Assembly: GCA_903930515.1 (NCBI GenBank)
Contig: CAIYYW010000329.1
Coordinates: 1 to 36,620 of the forward strand
DNA length: 36,620 nt
Direction of reading: 5' to 3'
Source: an uncultured delta proteobacterium
Lineage (GTDB): Bacteria; RBG-13-61-14; DRUE01
Each line of letters begins with the position of its first letter. Within the stretch, counting starts at the first letter, position 1. Below the pieces are notes generated by a model that was given only the letters and a program-made list of their open reading frames with translations, was not told the origin of the DNA and ran no database searches. Positions 28,218-36,620 of this stretch are shown in pieces. The position numbers were made by a program, and so were the translations under genes.

Positions 28218-28637
28218 ATGAGCGAGATGGTGATAAATTTTCCCGCACTGCTTTTTTCGCTGGTCACCGACGACCAGGGCGTGACCACTTTGGGAGACGA
28301 GGCCAAGGTTCATAAGATTCCGGACGATCTGGTGGTTCTGCTCCGGGTGCTGGAAGGGGCGGAAGCCGGCAAGGGCTACCAGATTCACGAGACCCCGGTC
28401 ACAATCGGCCGGGACAAGATTTGCGCGATCTCGGTCAAGGATTCCCGGATGAGCCGGCAGCACGGGGCGATCCTGTATTTCGCGCCCGACTTTTTCATCA
28501 AGGACCTCGCGTCCTCCAACGGCACCTTGCTGGACGGCAAGCCGGTGAAGCAGGCCAAGCTCAAGAACGGGGACAAGATCAAGATGGGGCAAACGGTTTT
28601 TGAATTCATCGTGAGCAATCTCTCGGAGGCGAAATAA
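28218..28637 (+). CDS. FHA-domain protein
   Basis: VTIGRDKICAISVKDSRMSRQHGAILYFAPDFFIKDLASSNGTLLDG. Confidence 0.93.
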   Translation: MSEMVINFPALLFSLVTDDQGVTTLGDEAKVHKIPDDLVVLLRVLEGAEAGKGYQIHETPVTIGRDKICAISVKDSRMSRQHGAILYFAPDFFIKDLASSNGTLLDGKPVKQAKLKNGDKIKMGQTVFEFIVSNLSEAK

Positions 28638-29407
28638 TGCGCGAGCTTTCTTTGATCAGCTCCGGCGAGACCAATCAGGGGCGGCTCCGGGAGGTGAACC
28701 AGGATTTTTTCCTGGTCAACCGACAGCTTAATCTGTTCGCGGTGGCGGACGGGATTGAAACCGCGCCTTACGGCGAGCTGGCGAGCAGGATGGCCGCGGA
28801 GAAGCTGGAGGGCCTGCTCAAGGATTTTGACCTGTCCCTGGACGCCACTCCCCCGAGCGATGATCATCCCGCGGTGCCGCTCCCGGTCCGGGCGCTCAAA
28901 TACGCATTCCGCGAGGTGAACCGCCAGATTTATAATTTTTCGCGCGAGACCCCGAAATACCAGGGGATGGGCACCACCCTGACCGCGCTCTGGATTTATC
29001 AGGGCCGCGCCTATTTCGGACATCTCGGGGACAGCCGCGGTTATTTGATCCGACAGAAAGTGGCGCAACAACTCACCCATGATCATACTTCCATCTCCGA
29101 TTCTCCCTCGAAATTAAGCGAGGATATGGAATTTTACGAGGGCAGCCAGCGCACCTCCGAACACGAGCTGACCCAGGCGCTCGGGATCAATCCGGATATT
29201 CAGGTGCAACTGGCCGGGGGGTCGCCCAAATCCGGGGACCATTTCCTGCTCTGCACCGACGGCCTCTACGGCCAGGTCCAGACCTGGGAGATGGTGGATA
29301 TGGTGAACCAGAACCTCCCCCATCTGGCCTGCCGGAAACTGATCCAGCTTGCAAATCAGAAGGGAGGCAAGGATAATGTCGCGGTGGTGGTCGTGCAGGT
29401 GGAATGA
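28637..29407 (+). CDS. PP2C-family Ser/Thr protein phosphatase
   Basis: GRLREVNQDFFLV; YFGHLGDSRGYLIR; HFLLCTDGLYGQV; GGKDNVAVVVV. Confidence 0.92.
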   Translation: MRELSLISSGETNQGRLREVNQDFFLVNRQLNLFAVADGIETAPYGELASRMAAEKLEGLLKDFDLSLDATPPSDDHPAVPLPVRALKYAFREVNRQIYNFSRETPKYQGMGTTLTALWIYQGRAYFGHLGDSRGYLIRQKVAQQLTHDHTSISDSPSKLSEDMEFYEGSQRTSEHELTQALGINPDIQVQLAGGSPKSGDHFLLCTDGLYGQVQTWEMVDMVNQNLPHLACRKLIQLANQKGGKDNVAVVVVQVE

Positions 29408-29460
29408 GGGCAAGGGTCTGAGGTCAGGGGAAAATTAACCACGGAAAAAAGGAGAGAGCA

Positions 29461-29919
29461 ATGGAAAATTTGGAGCTGATCAGAAACATCCGGATTTTTA
29501 TGGAACTGGAAGACCCGGAGTTGGAAAGGTTTTTACAGATCGCGGAGGAGAAGAAATTCGCCAAAGGCGCGGTGATTATTGAAGAGAACACGGAAGGGAA
29601 AGCCCTGTTCATTATCAAGAACGGCACGGTGGAAGTGACCAAGGTGGACGGGGCGCTGGAGAGCGAGTTGGGCAAGCTGTTCGCGGGGGAGCATTTTGGG
29701 GAGATGAGCCTGGTGGAGGACGCGAAAACCAGCGCGCGGGTCAAGGCCTATAATGAAGTGGTGTGCCTGGTGATTCCGCGGAGTGAGTTCCAGAAATTGA
29801 TTGAGAGCGATTACAAGGTTGCGGCCCGGGTTTACAAGGCCTTCACCCAGACCTTGTGCGACCGGCTCCGTCAGACCTCCCAGGACCTGGTGGCCTGGAA
29901 GCCGGAATTTCAGACCTGA
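29461..29919 (+). CDS. Cyclic-nucleotide-binding-domain (CRP-type beta-roll) protein without DNA-binding domain
   Basis: KGAVIIEENTEGKALFIIKNGTVEVTK...FAGEHFGEMSLVEDAKTSARVKAYNEVVCLVI. Confidence 0.9.
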   Translation: MENLELIRNIRIFMELEDPELERFLQIAEEKKFAKGAVIIEENTEGKALFIIKNGTVEVTKVDGALESELGKLFAGEHFGEMSLVEDAKTSARVKAYNEVVCLVIPRSEFQKLIESDYKVAARVYKAFTQTLCDRLRQTSQDLVAWKPEFQT

Positions 29920-29933
29920 CCGGAGCGCTCCCG

Positions 29934-30689
29934 CTAGTGGATCGGGGATCGCTTCAGGTTATTGATCAGCAGCTTGACCTGCTCGCCAAAATCCATCCGG
30001 TCCTGCCGCCTGGGATAGTAAAGGCTCGGCGCGCAGAAGGTGAGCACCTTGCGGAACGCCTCGGTATCGGGCGGATCAAAGAAGAACACGATCGGGATCA
30101 GACCCGGTCTCTGATAGGCCCGCTCGTATGCCCTGATTGAAATCGCGGCATTGATCCCGTTGATGATCGGCATTTTCAAATCCAGGATCAACAAACCCGG
30201 GTCCCGGTTCTGTTCAAACCACTCAAGGGTCCGAACCATCAGTTCCTCGCCGTTGGGAAAAGCATGGCTCTCCTCCGCCAGCATTGACTGTTTGGCCTCC
30301 GCCGCCAGCATTTCCCGCTCCTGATTCTCGTAACCGGCTATGAACAGATTGGGATAGAGCGGAGAAGTGAGAGGCAATGACGCGGTGGTCGGCTCTAGCC
30401 GGACCGTCAATTCGCTCCGTCCCACCTGGATTTGGTCTCCGTTTTTCAAGGTGATGCGCTCATCAATCGGGGCTTGATTGACAAAGGTGCCGTTCTTGCT
30501 CATCAAGTCTTCCAGCTCCACCGACTCGCCGCCGGCAATGATCTGGCAATGCTTGACGCTCACGGAGCTGTCATTGAGGACCACCTCCGCTTTCCGGCTC
30601 CGGCCGATCAGGATGTTGTCCTGAGTGAACTGGTACTCCTCTCCTCGCTGGCTGCCGCCGGTGATCATAATAAAAACTTTCCATCCCAT
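29934..30689 (-). CDS. FHA domain + degenerate response-regulator receiver-like domain
   Basis: ILIGRSRKAEVVLNDSSVSVKHCQIIAGGESVELEDLMSKNGTFVN; LLILDLKMPIINGINAAISIRAYE. Confidence 0.82.
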   Translation of the reverse strand: MGWKVFIMITGGSQRGEEYQFTQDNILIGRSRKAEVVLNDSSVSVKHCQIIAGGESVELEDLMSKNGTFVNQAPIDERITLKNGDQIQVGRSELTVRLEPTTASLPLTSPLYPNLFIAGYENQEREMLAAEAKQSMLAEESHAFPNGEELMVRTLEWFEQNRDPGLLILDLKMPIINGINAAISIRAYERAYQRPGLIPIVFFFDPPDTEAFRKVLTFCAPSLYYPRRQDRMDFGEQVKLLINNLKRSPIH

Positions 30690-30730: not shown

Positions 30731-31558
30731 TCAGGAGCCAAACTTGATCCGGCCGGAAAAAACCAGCCGGGCCGGGCCGGTCAGATAGCAGGAATTCGGA
30801 TTCCACTCAATCCATAAATCTCCGCCCGGGAGGGATACCGTCGCGGAGCAATCGGCCAGGCCGAGCTTGGCGCAGGCAACCAGGGCCGCGCAGGCTCCGG
30901 TTCCACAGGCCAAAGTCTCTCCGGCTCCCCGTTCCCATACCCGGACCTGGAGATGAGATCGGCTGATTACTTTCACGAACTCCACATTGACCCGGTTCGG
31001 AAACCAGCGATGGCGCTCGATCTTCGGCCCCAGCCGGGCCAGGTCAATTTTGCTCAAATCCGGAACCGGGATCACGCAATGCGGGTTCCCGACCGAGAGG
31101 CAGGTGGCGGAAAAGTTCTTGCCCTCCACCTTCAAGGTTTTTCCGATCAACTCGCCCCGGCCCGCCACTGGGATTTTCTTCGGATCAAATTCCGCCCTTC
31201 CGATCCCGACCCGGAACCGATGGCTTAGCTTCTCAACCCGCATCACCCCGGCCCGGGTCTCGATTCCAAAATTCGTCTTCCGGCTCAGGCCCCGTTCATA
31301 TATATATAGCGCCAGGCAGCGGATCCCGTTCCCGCACATCTCCGCCTCGGACCCGTCCGCGTTGAAAATCCGCATCCGGAAGTCCGCGTCTTTCTTTCCG
31401 GATTTTTGCAGAAGCAAAATACCGTCCGCGCCGATCCCGAAATGGCGGTCGCACCATTTGATCACCTGTCTTTTGGCCGGGACCCAATCCCTGCCCCGGG
31501 TGTCAAGCAGGATGAAATCGTTCCCCAGTCCCTCCAGCTTGTAAAAATTCAGCTCCAT
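30731..31558 (-). CDS. dapF: Diaminopimelate epimerase
   Basis: FYKLEGLGNDFILLD; AEMCGNGIRCLALY; GAGETLACGTGACAALVA. Confidence 0.97.
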   Translation of the reverse strand: MELNFYKLEGLGNDFILLDTRGRDWVPAKRQVIKWCDRHFGIGADGILLLQKSGKKDADFRMRIFNADGSEAEMCGNGIRCLALYIYERGLSRKTNFGIETRAGVMRVEKLSHRFRVGIGRAEFDPKKIPVAGRGELIGKTLKVEGKNFSATCLSVGNPHCVIPVPDLSKIDLARLGPKIERHRWFPNRVNVEFVKVISRSHLQVRVWERGAGETLACGTGACAALVACAKLGLADCSATVSLPGGDLWIEWNPNSCYLTGPARLVFSGRIKFGS

Positions 31559-31559
31559 C

Positions 31560-32825
31560 TTATTTCCCGTCCAGGAATTCCGGAATCTTCTCCAGCCGGG
31601 TCAGATCCGAGTATTTCTCCCGCTCCCGGATCACATGGAAATCTCTTCCCGAAACCAGCACCTCGGCCGGGAGCGGCTGGCCGTTGTAATTGCTCGCCAT
31701 AACGAACCCATACGCGCCCGCGCTCATCACCGCCAGCAACTCCCCCCGCTTAAGCTCCGGAAACACCCGGTCCCGGGCAAGGAAATCAGCGCTCTCGCAG
31801 ATCGGCCCGACCAGGTCCGCGAGCGATCCCGGCTGATCCGGCTTTTGCGTCACCGGCCAAACCTCGTGATACGATCCGTAAAGCGCCGGCCGGATCAAAT
31901 CGTTCATCCCGCCGTCCGCGATGATGAACCGCTTCAAGCTGTTCTCCTTCAAAAAAGACACCTGCAACAGCAACACCCCGGCGTTCCCCGCGATCACCCT
32001 TCCCGGCTCCAAAATCAGCTTGCAGCCGGAAGCTTTCGCCATCTCGGAAATCTCCGCGGCGTATTCCCCGGGCAGGGGCGGATGCTCGCTGTTATAGGTG
32101 ATGCCCAATCCTCCGCCCAAGTCCAGGTATTTGATCTCCAATCCCATACCCCGCAACTCCCCCACCAGTTTCACCAGGAAGGAAAGCGCCTCCACGATCG
32201 GCTCCATCCGAAGAAGCTGGCTACCGATATGGCAGTCCACCCCGCACAATTCCAAATGCGGATATTTCTTCCAGTCCCGGAACAAGGACTTGGCCTGGCC
32301 CAGTTCAATCCCGAACTTGTTGACCTTCAGCCCGGTGGAAATATGGGCGTGGGTCTGAGGGTCTATGTCCGGGTTGATCCGGAGCGCCACCGGGGTTTTT
32401 TTCCCCAGCCGACCCGCCACCTGGTTCAACAGCTCAAGCTCGCCCTCGCTCTCCACATTGAAAAACAGAATCCCTTTGGACAAGGCGTATTCCAACTCCG
32501 GTTCGGTTTTAGACACCCCGCTGTAAACCACCTTTTGAAAATCCCCGCCCGCCTGCTCCACCCGGTAAAGCTCCCCTCCGCTCACGATGTCAAACCCGCT
32601 CCCCAGCCGCGAAAATAGGCGCAGGATCGCCAGGTTGGATAAAGCCTTGACCGAAAAACAGGTGAGGTGGGGGATGTCCGCGAAGGAATGGTCAAACGCC
32701 TGGTAATGACGGGTCAGAGTAGCCGAGCTGTAAATATACGCCGGAGTACCCGTTTCCTCCGCAATCCGCCGGAGCGGAACCTCCTCGCAATACAACTCGC
32801 CGTGCTGATAGTTGAAATGATGCAT
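31560..32825 (-). CDS. lysA: Diaminopimelate decarboxylase
   Basis: CFSVKALSNLAILRLFSRLGSGFDIVSGGELYR; LDLGGGLGITY; ICESADFLARDR; SD GGAG before ATG 32825 (track start 32843 is TTG). Confidence 0.97.
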   Translation of the reverse strand: MHHFNYQHGELYCEEVPLRRIAEETGTPAYIYSSATLTRHYQAFDHSFADIPHLTCFSVKALSNLAILRLFSRLGSGFDIVSGGELYRVEQAGGDFQKVVYSGVSKTEPELEYALSKGILFFNVESEGELELLNQVAGRLGKKTPVALRINPDIDPQTHAHISTGLKVNKFGIELGQAKSLFRDWKKYPHLELCGVDCHIGSQLLRMEPIVEALSFLVKLVGELRGMGLEIKYLDLGGGLGITYNSEHPPLPGEYAAEISEMAKASGCKLILEPGRVIAGNAGVLLLQVSFLKENSLKRFIIADGGMNDLIRPALYGSYHEVWPVTQKPDQPGSLADLVGPICESADFLARDRVFPELKRGELLAVMSAGAYGFVMASNYNGQPLPAEVLVSGRDFHVIREREKYSDLTRLEKIPEFLDGK

Positions 32826-32841
32826 CTCTGCTCCAAAATTC

Positions 32842-32868
32842 AAAAACCACCCGAGCGGATGGTTTTTT
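32842..32868 (-). other. Terminator-like hairpin in the lysA 5' leader
   Basis: minus strand AAAACCATCC-GCTC-GGGTGGTTTTT within about 25 nt of the predicted TSS; also terminator-like on the plus strand (…GGATGGTTTTTTT). Confidence 0.55.
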
Positions 32869-33038: not shown

Positions 33039-33425
<387 letters not shown>

Positions 33426-34670
33426 TTATTCAGCTTCCCCGCCATACGCCGACTCGCTATGCTGGCTCAAATCCAATCCCCTATCCTCGTCCTCCGCCTC
33501 CACCCGCATCCCGATCAGCTTGTCCACCACCCGGTAAAAAATCAGGCTCATCACCAGGCCGAATACCACGGTCACAACCACGGCCAGGAGCTGGATCAGG
33601 AATTGATGGGGGTTCCCGAAGAACAGGCCGTCGTTGCCCGCGGAATTGATCGCCTTCTGAGCGAACAAACCCGCGGACAGCGTTCCCACAATTCCGCCGA
33701 TGCAATGCACCCCGAACACATCCAGCGCATCATCATAGCTGAACCAGGCCTTGACCTTGGTCACCGCGAAATAACAAAAGAACCCCGCGCCGATCCCGAT
33801 CGCGATGGCGGAAAGCGGTCCGACAAACCCGCAGGCCGGGGTGATCGTGGCCAGCCCGGCGATGGCGCCGGAGGCGCATCCCAACATTGTGGGTTTTCCC
33901 CGCAGCGTCCACTCCAGCAAGGCCCAGGTCAGGCCCGCGGCGGCTGCCGCGGTGTTGGTGGTGACAAAGGCGTTCACCGCAAGCCCGTTGGCCGCGAGCG
34001 CGGAGGCCGCGTTGAACCCAAACCATCCGAACCAGAGCAGGCCGGTCCCGAGCACGGTGAACGGTAGATTATGCGGCGGGATCGGGATCTCGCCGTAGCC
34101 TTTCCGTTTCCCGATCATAATCGCCAGCGCGAGCGCGGAAATGCCGGCGCTGATGTGAACCACGGTTCCGCCGGCAAAATCCAAAACGCCCAGGTTCCGG
34201 AGCCACCCGCCCGCTCCCCAGACCCAGTGCGCCAGCGGATCATAGACCAGCGCCGACCAGAGCAGGGCGAAGATGAAAAAGGACGAGAACTTGATCCGCT
34301 CCGCGAACGCTCCGATGAAGAGGGCAGGGGTGATCACCGCGAACATCGCCTGGAAGATCATAAAGGCCTGGTGCGGGATGGTCGCCGCGTAATCCGGGTT
34401 GGGCTGCATCCCCACCCCGGAAAGGCCGATCCATTTCAGGCTCCCGATTAAATGACCCAGGTCCGGGCCGAACGCGATAGAATACCCGAACAAAACCCAC
34501 TGCACCCCGATCAGGCACATCAGAATGAAGCACTGCATCAGAATGCTAAGCACATTCTTCCGCCGAACCATCCCCCCGTAAAAGAGCGCCAGGCCCGGGG
34601 TCATCAGCAAGACCAGCGCCGAGCCGACCAGAACGAAAGCCGTGTCTCCAGAATCAATCATTTCAATCAC
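33426..34670 (-). CDS. amtB: Ammonium transporter
   Basis: TPGLALFYGGMVRRKNVLSILMQ; DFAGGTVVHISAGISALA; DDALDVFGVHCIGGIVGTL. Confidence 0.96.
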   Translation of the reverse strand: MIEMIDSGDTAFVLVGSALVLLMTPGLALFYGGMVRRKNVLSILMQCFILMCLIGVQWVLFGYSIAFGPDLGHLIGSLKWIGLSGVGMQPNPDYAATIPHQAFMIFQAMFAVITPALFIGAFAERIKFSSFFIFALLWSALVYDPLAHWVWGAGGWLRNLGVLDFAGGTVVHISAGISALALAIMIGKRKGYGEIPIPPHNLPFTVLGTGLLWFGWFGFNAASALAANGLAVNAFVTTNTAAAAAGLTWALLEWTLRGKPTMLGCASGAIAGLATITPACGFVGPLSAIAIGIGAGFFCYFAVTKVKAWFSYDDALDVFGVHCIGGIVGTLSAGLFAQKAINSAGNDGLFFGNPHQFLIQLLAVVVTVVFGLVMSLIFYRVVDKLIGMRVEAEDEDRGLDLSQHSESAYGGEAE

Positions 34671-35158: not shown

Positions 35159-36499
35159 ATGCCCTATTTAATTTTCTGGGGCTGTCATATCCCGGCTCGG
35201 TTTCCGCATTTGGAGCTTTCAATGAAAAAGGTTCTGGACGCGCTCGGGATACTTTATGCGGAGAGCAACCGGTTCACCTGCTGTCCGGAAAATTTCGGGA
35301 TCAAGGCGATGGGTCATTACCCCTGGCTTTTGACCGCGGGAAGGAATCTGGCGATTGCGGAAACGATGGGGATGGATCTGGTCAGCGCGTGCAACGGTTG
35401 TTATTCCACCTTGAAGAGCGCCCAGGCGGAGCTGCGAGGAGACGCGATGGCGCGGCAGAGCCTGAACCAATCCCTCCAAGGGATCGGCATGGAATATCAG
35501 GGCACGCTCAAGATCAGTCATTTCCTTGAGATGCTTTTTGACGATCTCAGTCCCGCGGGCATCAAGCGCAGGATTCGGAGGCCTCTGCAGGGAATTAAAA
35601 TCGCGGCTCATCCCGGGTGTCATCTGCTCAGGCCATCCACTCATCTCCGGTTTGACGAGCCGTTTATCGCGTCCAAGTTTGATCAACTGATCGCGGCAAC
35701 CTGCGCGGAGCCGCTGGAATATCAGGGCAAATTTCTCTGCTGTGGAGGCTCGTTCAAATATTCCGGCGAGGATGAGCTTTCCCTTCAGGCGGTTCGGGTC
35801 AAATTGAAAGAAATTCAGGAGTTGGGAGCGGACGCCTTGGTCACCGGCTGTCCCACCTGTTACAGCCAGTTTGACTCGGGTCAGATGATGCTCAACCGGG
35901 CCGGAGAAAAATTTGAGATTCCCGTGCTTTATTACACGGAACTGCTCGGGCTTGCGCTCGGGCTGTCTGCGGAAGAGCTTGCCCTGGACCGGCATCGGGT
36001 TCCGGTTGACAGCCTGCTCAACCGGCTGGCGCAGAAAGAAACGGAGAGGTTCTCGGCTAAAGGCATAATCAATCTGGAGATGATGCGGCAGTGCGTAGCC
36101 TGCTCCGCGTGCAAAGACGACTGTCCCGCGGTCAAGATCAGCAATGAGGGTTTCCAGCCCCATCGGCTTTTTGAAAAAATACTGGCGGGCGATTTGGCGG
36201 GGGTTCTGGCGTCAAGGGAAATCTGGAATTGCCTGGACTGCCACACCTGCGAGGAGTTGTGCGGACAGGCGATCGGGATGAACCGCTTCTTCGGTCAGCT
36301 TAGAGAATTGGCGCTGGCAAAAGGCCTGGCGCCGGAATCGGTCCAAGGCTCGGTGGACGCCTTTTGCAAGACCGGGATGGTGACCAAGCCCGCTCAAGTG
36401 ATGCGGAAGAAGCTGGGATTGGGAGAGCTCGCGCCCGCGGGGGATGATGAGTTGAAAAAGGTTCTCGCCGGGATGCACCGGTCAAAGGAGCCGGAATAA
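35159..36499 (+). CDS. Heterodisulfide-reductase-like HdrB-HdrC fusion (two CCG-type domains + two 4Fe-4S motifs)
   Basis: GCHIPARFP...TCCPENFG...CNGCYSTLK; HPGCHLLRPS...FLCCGGSFKYSG...TGCPTCYSQFD; CVACSACKDDCP and CLDCHTCEELC. Confidence 0.88.
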   Translation: MPYLIFWGCHIPARFPHLELSMKKVLDALGILYAESNRFTCCPENFGIKAMGHYPWLLTAGRNLAIAETMGMDLVSACNGCYSTLKSAQAELRGDAMARQSLNQSLQGIGMEYQGTLKISHFLEMLFDDLSPAGIKRRIRRPLQGIKIAAHPGCHLLRPSTHLRFDEPFIASKFDQLIAATCAEPLEYQGKFLCCGGSFKYSGEDELSLQAVRVKLKEIQELGADALVTGCPTCYSQFDSGQMMLNRAGEKFEIPVLYYTELLGLALGLSAEELALDRHRVPVDSLLNRLAQKETERFSAKGIINLEMMRQCVACSACKDDCPAVKISNEGFQPHRLFEKILAGDLAGVLASREIWNCLDCHTCEELCGQAIGMNRFFGQLRELALAKGLAPESVQGSVDAFCKTGMVTKPAQVMRKKLGLGELAPAGDDELKKVLAGMHRSKEPE

Positions 36500-36501
36500 A
36501 A

Positions 36502-36620
36502 ATGCAAGTCCGGGGTGTCTATGACTGGGAAATAAGAAACCCGTGCGGGTGCGGGATCACCGCGCTTTTAAGCGCGAAGCAAAAGCGCTCTGGCGGGGAG
36601 CTGGTGGTTCGGTCTCTGAA
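36502..36620 (+). CDS. 5' fragment of a class-II glutamine amidotransferase (glutamate synthase GltB1-like), truncated by window end
   Basis: MQVRGVYDWEIRNPCGCGITALLSAKQKRSGGELVVRSL: C-G-I-x-A/G start typical of Ntn-type GATase near an N-terminal Cys. Confidence 0.55.
   Translation, partial: MQVRGVYDWEIRNPCGCGITALLSAKQKRSGGELVVRSL

Follow-up and report, generated by a model that had tools for sequence, protein, structure and literature searches.

Results and Discussion

The hdrBC fusion gene located near the end of the analyzed stretch of DNA (36,620 nucleotides, hereafter the window) probably encodes a dedicated, dithiol-fed electron-supplying subunit of a three-part (archaeal-type) glutamate synthase, with an estimated probability of roughly 0.7. 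This reading is based on the linkage of hdrBC to the glt genes, the identities of the encoded subunits, the conserved cluster ligands, co-inheritance and, in one lineage, lipoylation genes within the operon itself. The coordinates of all relevant features are collected in Table 1.

Table 1. Positions of the hdrBC-glt features in the window, on contig C356 of the same genome and at the loci used for comparison
Feature	Location	Strand	Remarks
glnB/glnK, P-II nitrogen regulator	33039..33407	-	adjoining amtB; PF00543, E 1.6e-34
amtB, ammonium transporter	33426..34670	-	divergent from hdrBC; PF00909, E 5.9e-130
hdrBC fusion	35159..36499	+	446 aa; proposed electron-input subunit of glutamate synthase
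HdrB domain, first CCG motif (C9, C41-C42, C78, C81)	35171..35413	+	Pfam
HdrB domain, second CCG motif (C154, C194-C195, C231, C234)	35600..35875	+	Pfam
HdrC-like domain, two [4Fe-4S] motifs (C312/315/318/322, C358/361/364/368)	36083..36271	+	Pfam, phmmer
gltB1 5' end (class II glutamine amidotransferase subunit)	36502..36620	+	cut by contig end
gltB1 remainder	G000:C356:1-967 (locus L044)		continuation of window gltB1
gltB2	C356 964-2469		downstream of gltB1
gltB3	C356 2524-3324		downstream of gltB2
glnA	C356 3429-4856		downstream of gltB3
Lipoyl-type operons	L052:3203-7841; L051:1-2643 with L171:1-5743; L073, L078, L079, L083, L105
Flavoprotein-type three-part loci	L146-L149, L152, L153, L155, L159, L162-L166		beside gltB1, replacing HdrBC

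Architecture of the HdrBC Fusion

The first-pass annotation, made from the letters of the window, had described a single protein with two HdrB-type CCG domains followed by an HdrC-like pair of 4Fe-4S motifs, in an order inverted with respect to HdrD. Both points are borne out by the Pfam and phmmer alignments. Pfam recognizes the two CCG domains (E 9.6e-28) and, at residues 309-371, a 4Fe-4S dicluster domain. In a phmmer comparison with solved structures, residues 1-289 correspond to HdrB (5odc_B, E 1.2e-60) and residues 307-429 to HdrC (5odc_C, E 9.3e-11). The AlphaFold2 model, built on 46 relatives, has a mean pLDDT of 89.4, and its HdrB part fits 5odc_B with a TM score of 0.91 at 36% identity, so that the structure prediction supports the same assignment.

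The HdrB motif CX(31-39)CCX(35-36)CX2C is present twice in the fusion, and all ten HdrB and eight HdrC cysteines are retained. The 18 cluster-ligand cysteines are kept in 70 of 70 fusions (C9 wherever the alignment has letters at that position), which indicates that the catalytic HdrB clusters should be present. Against the HdrB equivalog TIGR03288 the fusion reaches 255.4 bits, below the cut-off of 345.15; consequently, its substrate may differ from CoM/CoB. The TfrB model also matches the fusion (E 3.7e-18).

The protein shares with HdrD, the HdrC-HdrB fusion of HdrDE, the presence of the two modules in one chain, but its modules stand in the opposite order and no HdrE accompanies it. Since at the loci of two relatives (L143 and L144) hdrB and hdrC are separate, overlapping genes already arranged B-then-C, the most plausible origin of the "inverted" fusion is a joining of neighboring hdrB and hdrC genes, and not a rearrangement of HdrD. 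The HdrB fold, both CCG motifs and the HdrC dicluster domain are common to the fusion and to HdrBC of the HdrABC complex (PDB 5odc). It differs from the latter in being fused B-then-C, in its link to glutamate synthase, in the absence of HdrA from the operon and in its score below the equivalog cut-off. HdrABC uses CoM-S-S-CoB as its high-potential acceptor.

The Glutamate Synthase Genes Downstream

Two bases past the hdrBC stop codon a new reading frame opens with the residues MQVRGVYDWEIRNPCGCGITALL. The window ends with its contig, C329, 119 bases into this gene, and the 39 residues available, too short for a family match, gave none; they do match GltB1 of a same-genus genome. With a same-genus GltB1 as the query, the remainder was found on another contig of the same genome, C356, from base 2 onward (84% identity, E 6.6e-188), and comparison with the same-genus relative places about 24 missing bases between the two contigs. 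GltB1 carries a class II amidotransferase domain (GATase_2, PF00310), and its N-terminal Cys followed by Gly is invariant or nearly so among 14 GltB1 proteins. GltB2 combines a Glu_synthase domain (PF01645, E 8.4e-128) with an N-terminal ferredoxin domain (Fer4), and GltB3 consists of a GXGXG domain (PF01493, E 5.7e-36). The amidotransferase-type frame noticed at the window's edge is thus a genuine glutamate synthase subunit, followed by the other two. The downstream extension that had been proposed recovered GltB2 and GltB3 as anticipated, but not HdrA: no hdrA gene occurs in the window or on C356. Likewise, no GltD-type gene adjoins hdrBC in the window or is found on C356 up to glnA. The amidotransferase, FMN and GXGXG modules are those of NADPH-GOGAT (GltBD), the differences being that here they are split into three genes and that the operon is without GltD.

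An assembly artifact at the contig end was considered and rejected, because the same-genus genome carries an uninterrupted hdrBC-gltB1 pair on one contig; distant relatives have the pair as well. Together with amtB, glnB and glnA, the hdrBC and glt genes constitute a nitrogen-assimilation region.

Farther from the operon, the window holds a signaling-type cluster at 28218-30689, encoding an FHA protein, a PP2C-type phosphatase, a cyclic-nucleotide-binding protein and a second FHA protein. At 30731-32843, on the minus strand, dapF (diaminopimelate epimerase) directly follows a lysA-type decarboxylase gene.

Distribution and Gene Linkage

An alignment of five fusions was used to scan 84,980 species genomes and yielded 80 loci, whose neighbor genes were mapped with profiles built in this analysis. 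The archaeal hosts include Methanoperedens, other ANME-2, Methanosarcinales, Lokiarchaeota and Borrarchaeota, among others, and the bacterial hosts Bacillota, Actinomycetota, Armatimonadota, Nitrospinota and Acidulodesulfobacteriota, among others. Same-strand glt genes accompany hdrBC in 77 of the 80 loci, and the set stays together in varied gene orders; gltB1 is directly downstream in 74 and all three gltB genes are present in 66. The three exceptions (L051, L095 and L121) are each cut by contig ends. At L051, nearly 10 kb downstream is free of glt genes, the upstream side is missing, and gltB1 is found on another contig of its genome. Orthologous fusions thus do neighbor glt genes, and a chance neighborhood can be rejected on the 77 same-strand loci. 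Plasmid relatives of the fusion amounted to two matches, both HdrB-only.

Two further observations were made in this survey. A GltB2-like paralogue of about 530 aa occurs near the operon in 11 of the 80 loci (e.g., L045:1858-3438), with a different cysteine-rich N-terminus, CVTCVDGCIGMCEIG, and only a weak PF01645 match. Locus L059, a 3.5 kb contig labeled Deltaproteobacteria, falls inside Methanoperedens in the HdrB tree and is probably a binning error.

Co-inheritance and Possible Exchange of Input Modules

The glt-linked HdrBs all fall into a single clade (99/97) of the HdrB-domain tree, which includes none of the 22 other HdrBs. Among 31 non-redundant loci, HdrBC distances correlate with those of GltB1, GltB2 and GltB3 (r 0.911, 0.917 and 0.904), values slightly below that between GltB1 and GltB2 (r 0.936); species relationships contribute to all of these correlations. 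These data bear on the possibility that HdrBC and glt are genomic neighbors only, with HdrBC serving another nitrogen or thiol reaction and merely being co-regulated. The proximity of amtB, glnB and glnA to hdrBC, as expected of a nitrogen-assimilation cluster, is compatible with such an arrangement. It is highly improbable, however, as the same-strand linkage extends over many phyla and both domains, differing gene orders retain the set, and the evolution of its members is coupled.

The composition of three-part glutamate synthases was also inspected irrespective of HdrBC. In 290 bacterial genomes sampled in this way, 51 had a GltB1 match, 39 of them full-scoring three-part forms (E below 1e-150), and the best 30 were examined. 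HdrB and HdrC lie beside gltB1 in eight of these best 30 loci and an NAD(P)H-type flavoprotein in 13, while none has both; in the remaining nine, neither is found within about 1.5 kb. The flavoproteins are related to NADH-dependent ferredoxin or nitrite reductase subunits. That of L147 was scanned against the family library, where the phenylglyoxylate dehydrogenase epsilon subunit is its closest model, and the other twelve were classified by profile matches and reading. Since HdrBC and the flavoprotein never occur together beside gltB1 in this sample, HdrBC looks like an alternative electron-input module of glutamate synthase. The exclusion is suggestive rather than conclusive, given that the slot next to gltB1 has room for one gene only and that the sampled loci are related by descent.

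Taking into account that GltB2 has its own N-terminal ferredoxin domain, free ferredoxin could also be the donor. Reduced ferredoxin might then feed GltB2 directly, while HdrBC would act as a sensor of the thiol redox state or as a regulatory subunit, tying glutamate synthesis to the thiol pool. Three-part GltB1 loci with neither HdrBC nor the flavoprotein within about 1.5 kb (L150, L154, L158 and L167) are consistent with such a donor. A sensor role is nevertheless quite improbable: the conservation of 18 out of 18 Fe-S ligands fits an electron-transfer subunit better, HdrBC co-varies as strongly as the enzyme subunits do, and it exchanges with an NAD(P)H-type flavoprotein.

Lipoyl Genes within the Operon

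In a lineage comprising Clostridia, Peptococcaceae, Desulfotomaculum and a "delta" MAG, the hdrBC-glt operon contains genes for a lipoyl system. The dihydrolipoyl dehydrogenase gene, lpd, is present in nine of the 80 loci, lipA in three, and lipB in two genomes. In six loci, the gene directly before hdrBC encodes a free-standing lipoyl domain (about 77 aa), and in a seventh (L051) this domain is fused to LipA. The gene order at L052 is gltB1-gltB2-gltB3-lpd-lipB-lipA-lipoyl-hdrBC. The L051 contig opens with lipA-lipoyl-hdrBC, and another contig from its genome closes with glnA-glnA-gltB1-gltB2-gltB3-lpd-lipB, which corresponds to an L052-like order distributed over two contigs. Two Lpd proteins were checked and both pass the dihydrolipoyl dehydrogenase equivalog cut-off of NCBIfam (562.9 and 496.8 vs 408.8), and the redox motif GGTCLNRGC is found in all nine operon Lpd proteins. 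LipA and LipB of L052 are likewise above their NCBIfam equivalog cut-offs, and the operon lipoyl domain matches SucB-type (E2) lipoyl domains, its putative lipoylation site being the Lys of a T(S/N)KAVF motif. No 2-oxoacid dehydrogenase or glycine cleavage genes appear among the recurring neighbor families of these operons, some neighbors being unannotated. Three loci (L050, from the cultured strain Desulfotomaculum copahuensis, L055 and L091) have lpd and gave no lipoyl domain in what is a weak test.

Most simply, the lipoyl domain would serve HdrB as its disulfide/dithiol partner, with Lpd keeping it reduced. The occurrence of lpd, lipB, lipA and the lipoyl domain in one operon lends strong support to the thiol branch of the first-pass proposal, which had suggested that either a thiol/disulfide or a flavin-bifurcating partner feeds electrons into glutamate synthesis. 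The lipoyl genes occur in one lineage alone, which counts against the thiol model. The odds are about even that Clostridia, Peptococcaceae and some others have a glutamate synthase dependent on a lipoyl protein, with related HdrBC-GOGATs elsewhere running on other dithiols, e.g., CoM-SH/CoB-SH.

The window's organism is not of this type. Its genome has no lpd and free lipoyl domain beside hdrBC, the lipoyl domain is absent from the window and its flanks, and no E2-type lipoyl domain was detected in the genome, which is 93% complete; the one good PF00364 match is a biotin carrier with the motif EAMKM. LipA and one GcvH are present.

The bifurcation branch of the earlier proposal fared less well. 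It would place HdrBC in the glutamate synthase as the recipient of electrons from an HdrA-type flavoprotein, forming a bifurcating complex with glutamate synthesis as the high-potential acceptor. In known HdrABC complexes HdrC does receive electrons from HdrA (PMC12054007). The window's genome contains one HdrABC set (contig C366), and separate hdrC-hdrB-hdrA genes adjoin the operon at L061, L075 and L085. Yet these three are the only loci out of 80 with hdrA near the operon, all belong to Methanosarcinales, and hdrA always comes with its own hdrB and hdrC; in the window's genome, too, HdrA already has HdrBC partners beside it. As HdrA feeding also leaves lpd and the lipoyl genes unexplained, this alternative is considered unlikely, and a general HdrA link is rejected, hdrA being never in the core operon. 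The Methanosarcinales sets themselves (L061:14819-18558, L075:6186-9792 and L085:2438-6194) perhaps regenerate thiols.

Proposed Electron Route

For the preferred reading of HdrBC as a dithiol-fed subunit, we infer that the fusion would form a complex with the glutamate synthase. The two non-cubane clusters of HdrB would be the site at which a dithiol is oxidized to its disulfide. By way of the two [4Fe-4S] clusters in the HdrC domain, the electrons would then reach the ferredoxin domain of GltB2, and from there its 3Fe-4S cluster and FMN. At the FMN, 2-oxoglutarate and ammonia, freed from glutamine by GltB1, would be converted to glutamate. In the Clostridia/Peptococcaceae/"delta" lineage, the dithiol would be the dihydrolipoyl group on the free-standing lipoyl domain, re-reduced with NAD(P)H by the co-encoded dihydrolipoyl dehydrogenase, which gives the putative sequence NAD(P)H, Lpd, lipoyl dithiol, HdrBC, GltB2. 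Methane-cycling archaea may instead use CoM-SH plus CoB-SH as the dithiol.

The potential of the 2-oxoglutarate/glutamate couple is close to -0.12 V and that of dihydrolipoamide about -0.29 V, and glutamine hydrolysis gives additional help. The CoM-S-S-CoB couple has a potential of -140 mV (PMC3087415). Either dihydrolipoamide or CoM-SH/CoB-SH could thus drive glutamate synthesis.

Comparison with Known Systems

Three systems offer precedents, by analogy, for parts of this scheme. In thiol:fumarate reductase (TfrAB) of methanogens, TfrB has HdrB-like CCG domains and takes electrons from CoM-SH and CoB-SH. Its acceptor is fumarate, and the module order and partner subunits differ from those of the HdrBC-glutamate synthase; it may still serve as a precedent for an HdrB-type subunit that supplies electrons to a biosynthetic reduction. 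The F420-dependent glutamate synthase of methanogens and ANME-1 has an FrhB-like added subunit (PMC3087415, PMC9012536). Both forms would join a glutamate synthase to an added oxidoreductase subunit that brings a special donor, FrhB-like for F420 in the one and HdrBC in the other, so that the F420-dependent form would be a precedent for a changed input module.

In the sHdr-LbpA pathway of sulfur oxidation, the genes for Hdr-like proteins are accompanied by one for a lipoate-binding protein and by dedicated lipoylation genes (PMC10332631), which suggests a precedent for a partnership of Hdr-like and lipoyl proteins. The lipoate-binding protein, LbpA, resembles GcvH and is made by sLpl(AB)/LipS1/LipS2, whereas the lipoyl-type operons use an E2/SucB-like domain, itself absent from the window, with LipB/LipA/Lpd and with glutamate as the product.

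Significance

In the literature searched, mostly without subscription papers, neither an HdrBC-glutamate synthase nor its lipoyl form was found described; a glt operon in which lpd, lipB, lipA and a free lipoyl domain accompany hdrBC appears to be new. Nitrogen enters cells mainly through glutamate, and the donors of known glutamate synthases are NAD(P)H, ferredoxin and, as proposed, F420H2. If the reading is correct, a thiol-driven form would tie nitrogen assimilation in anaerobes and methane oxidizers to the thiol/disulfide pool, and HdrBC would gain a biosynthetic partner enzyme. Energy-poor cells could then spend weaker electrons on a reaction that NADPH overpays for, and methane-oxidizing archaea would also regain the heterodisulfide they need. 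For protein-bound lipoate, this would constitute a third role, beside those in the 2-oxoacid and glycine cleavage enzymes and in sulfur oxidation.
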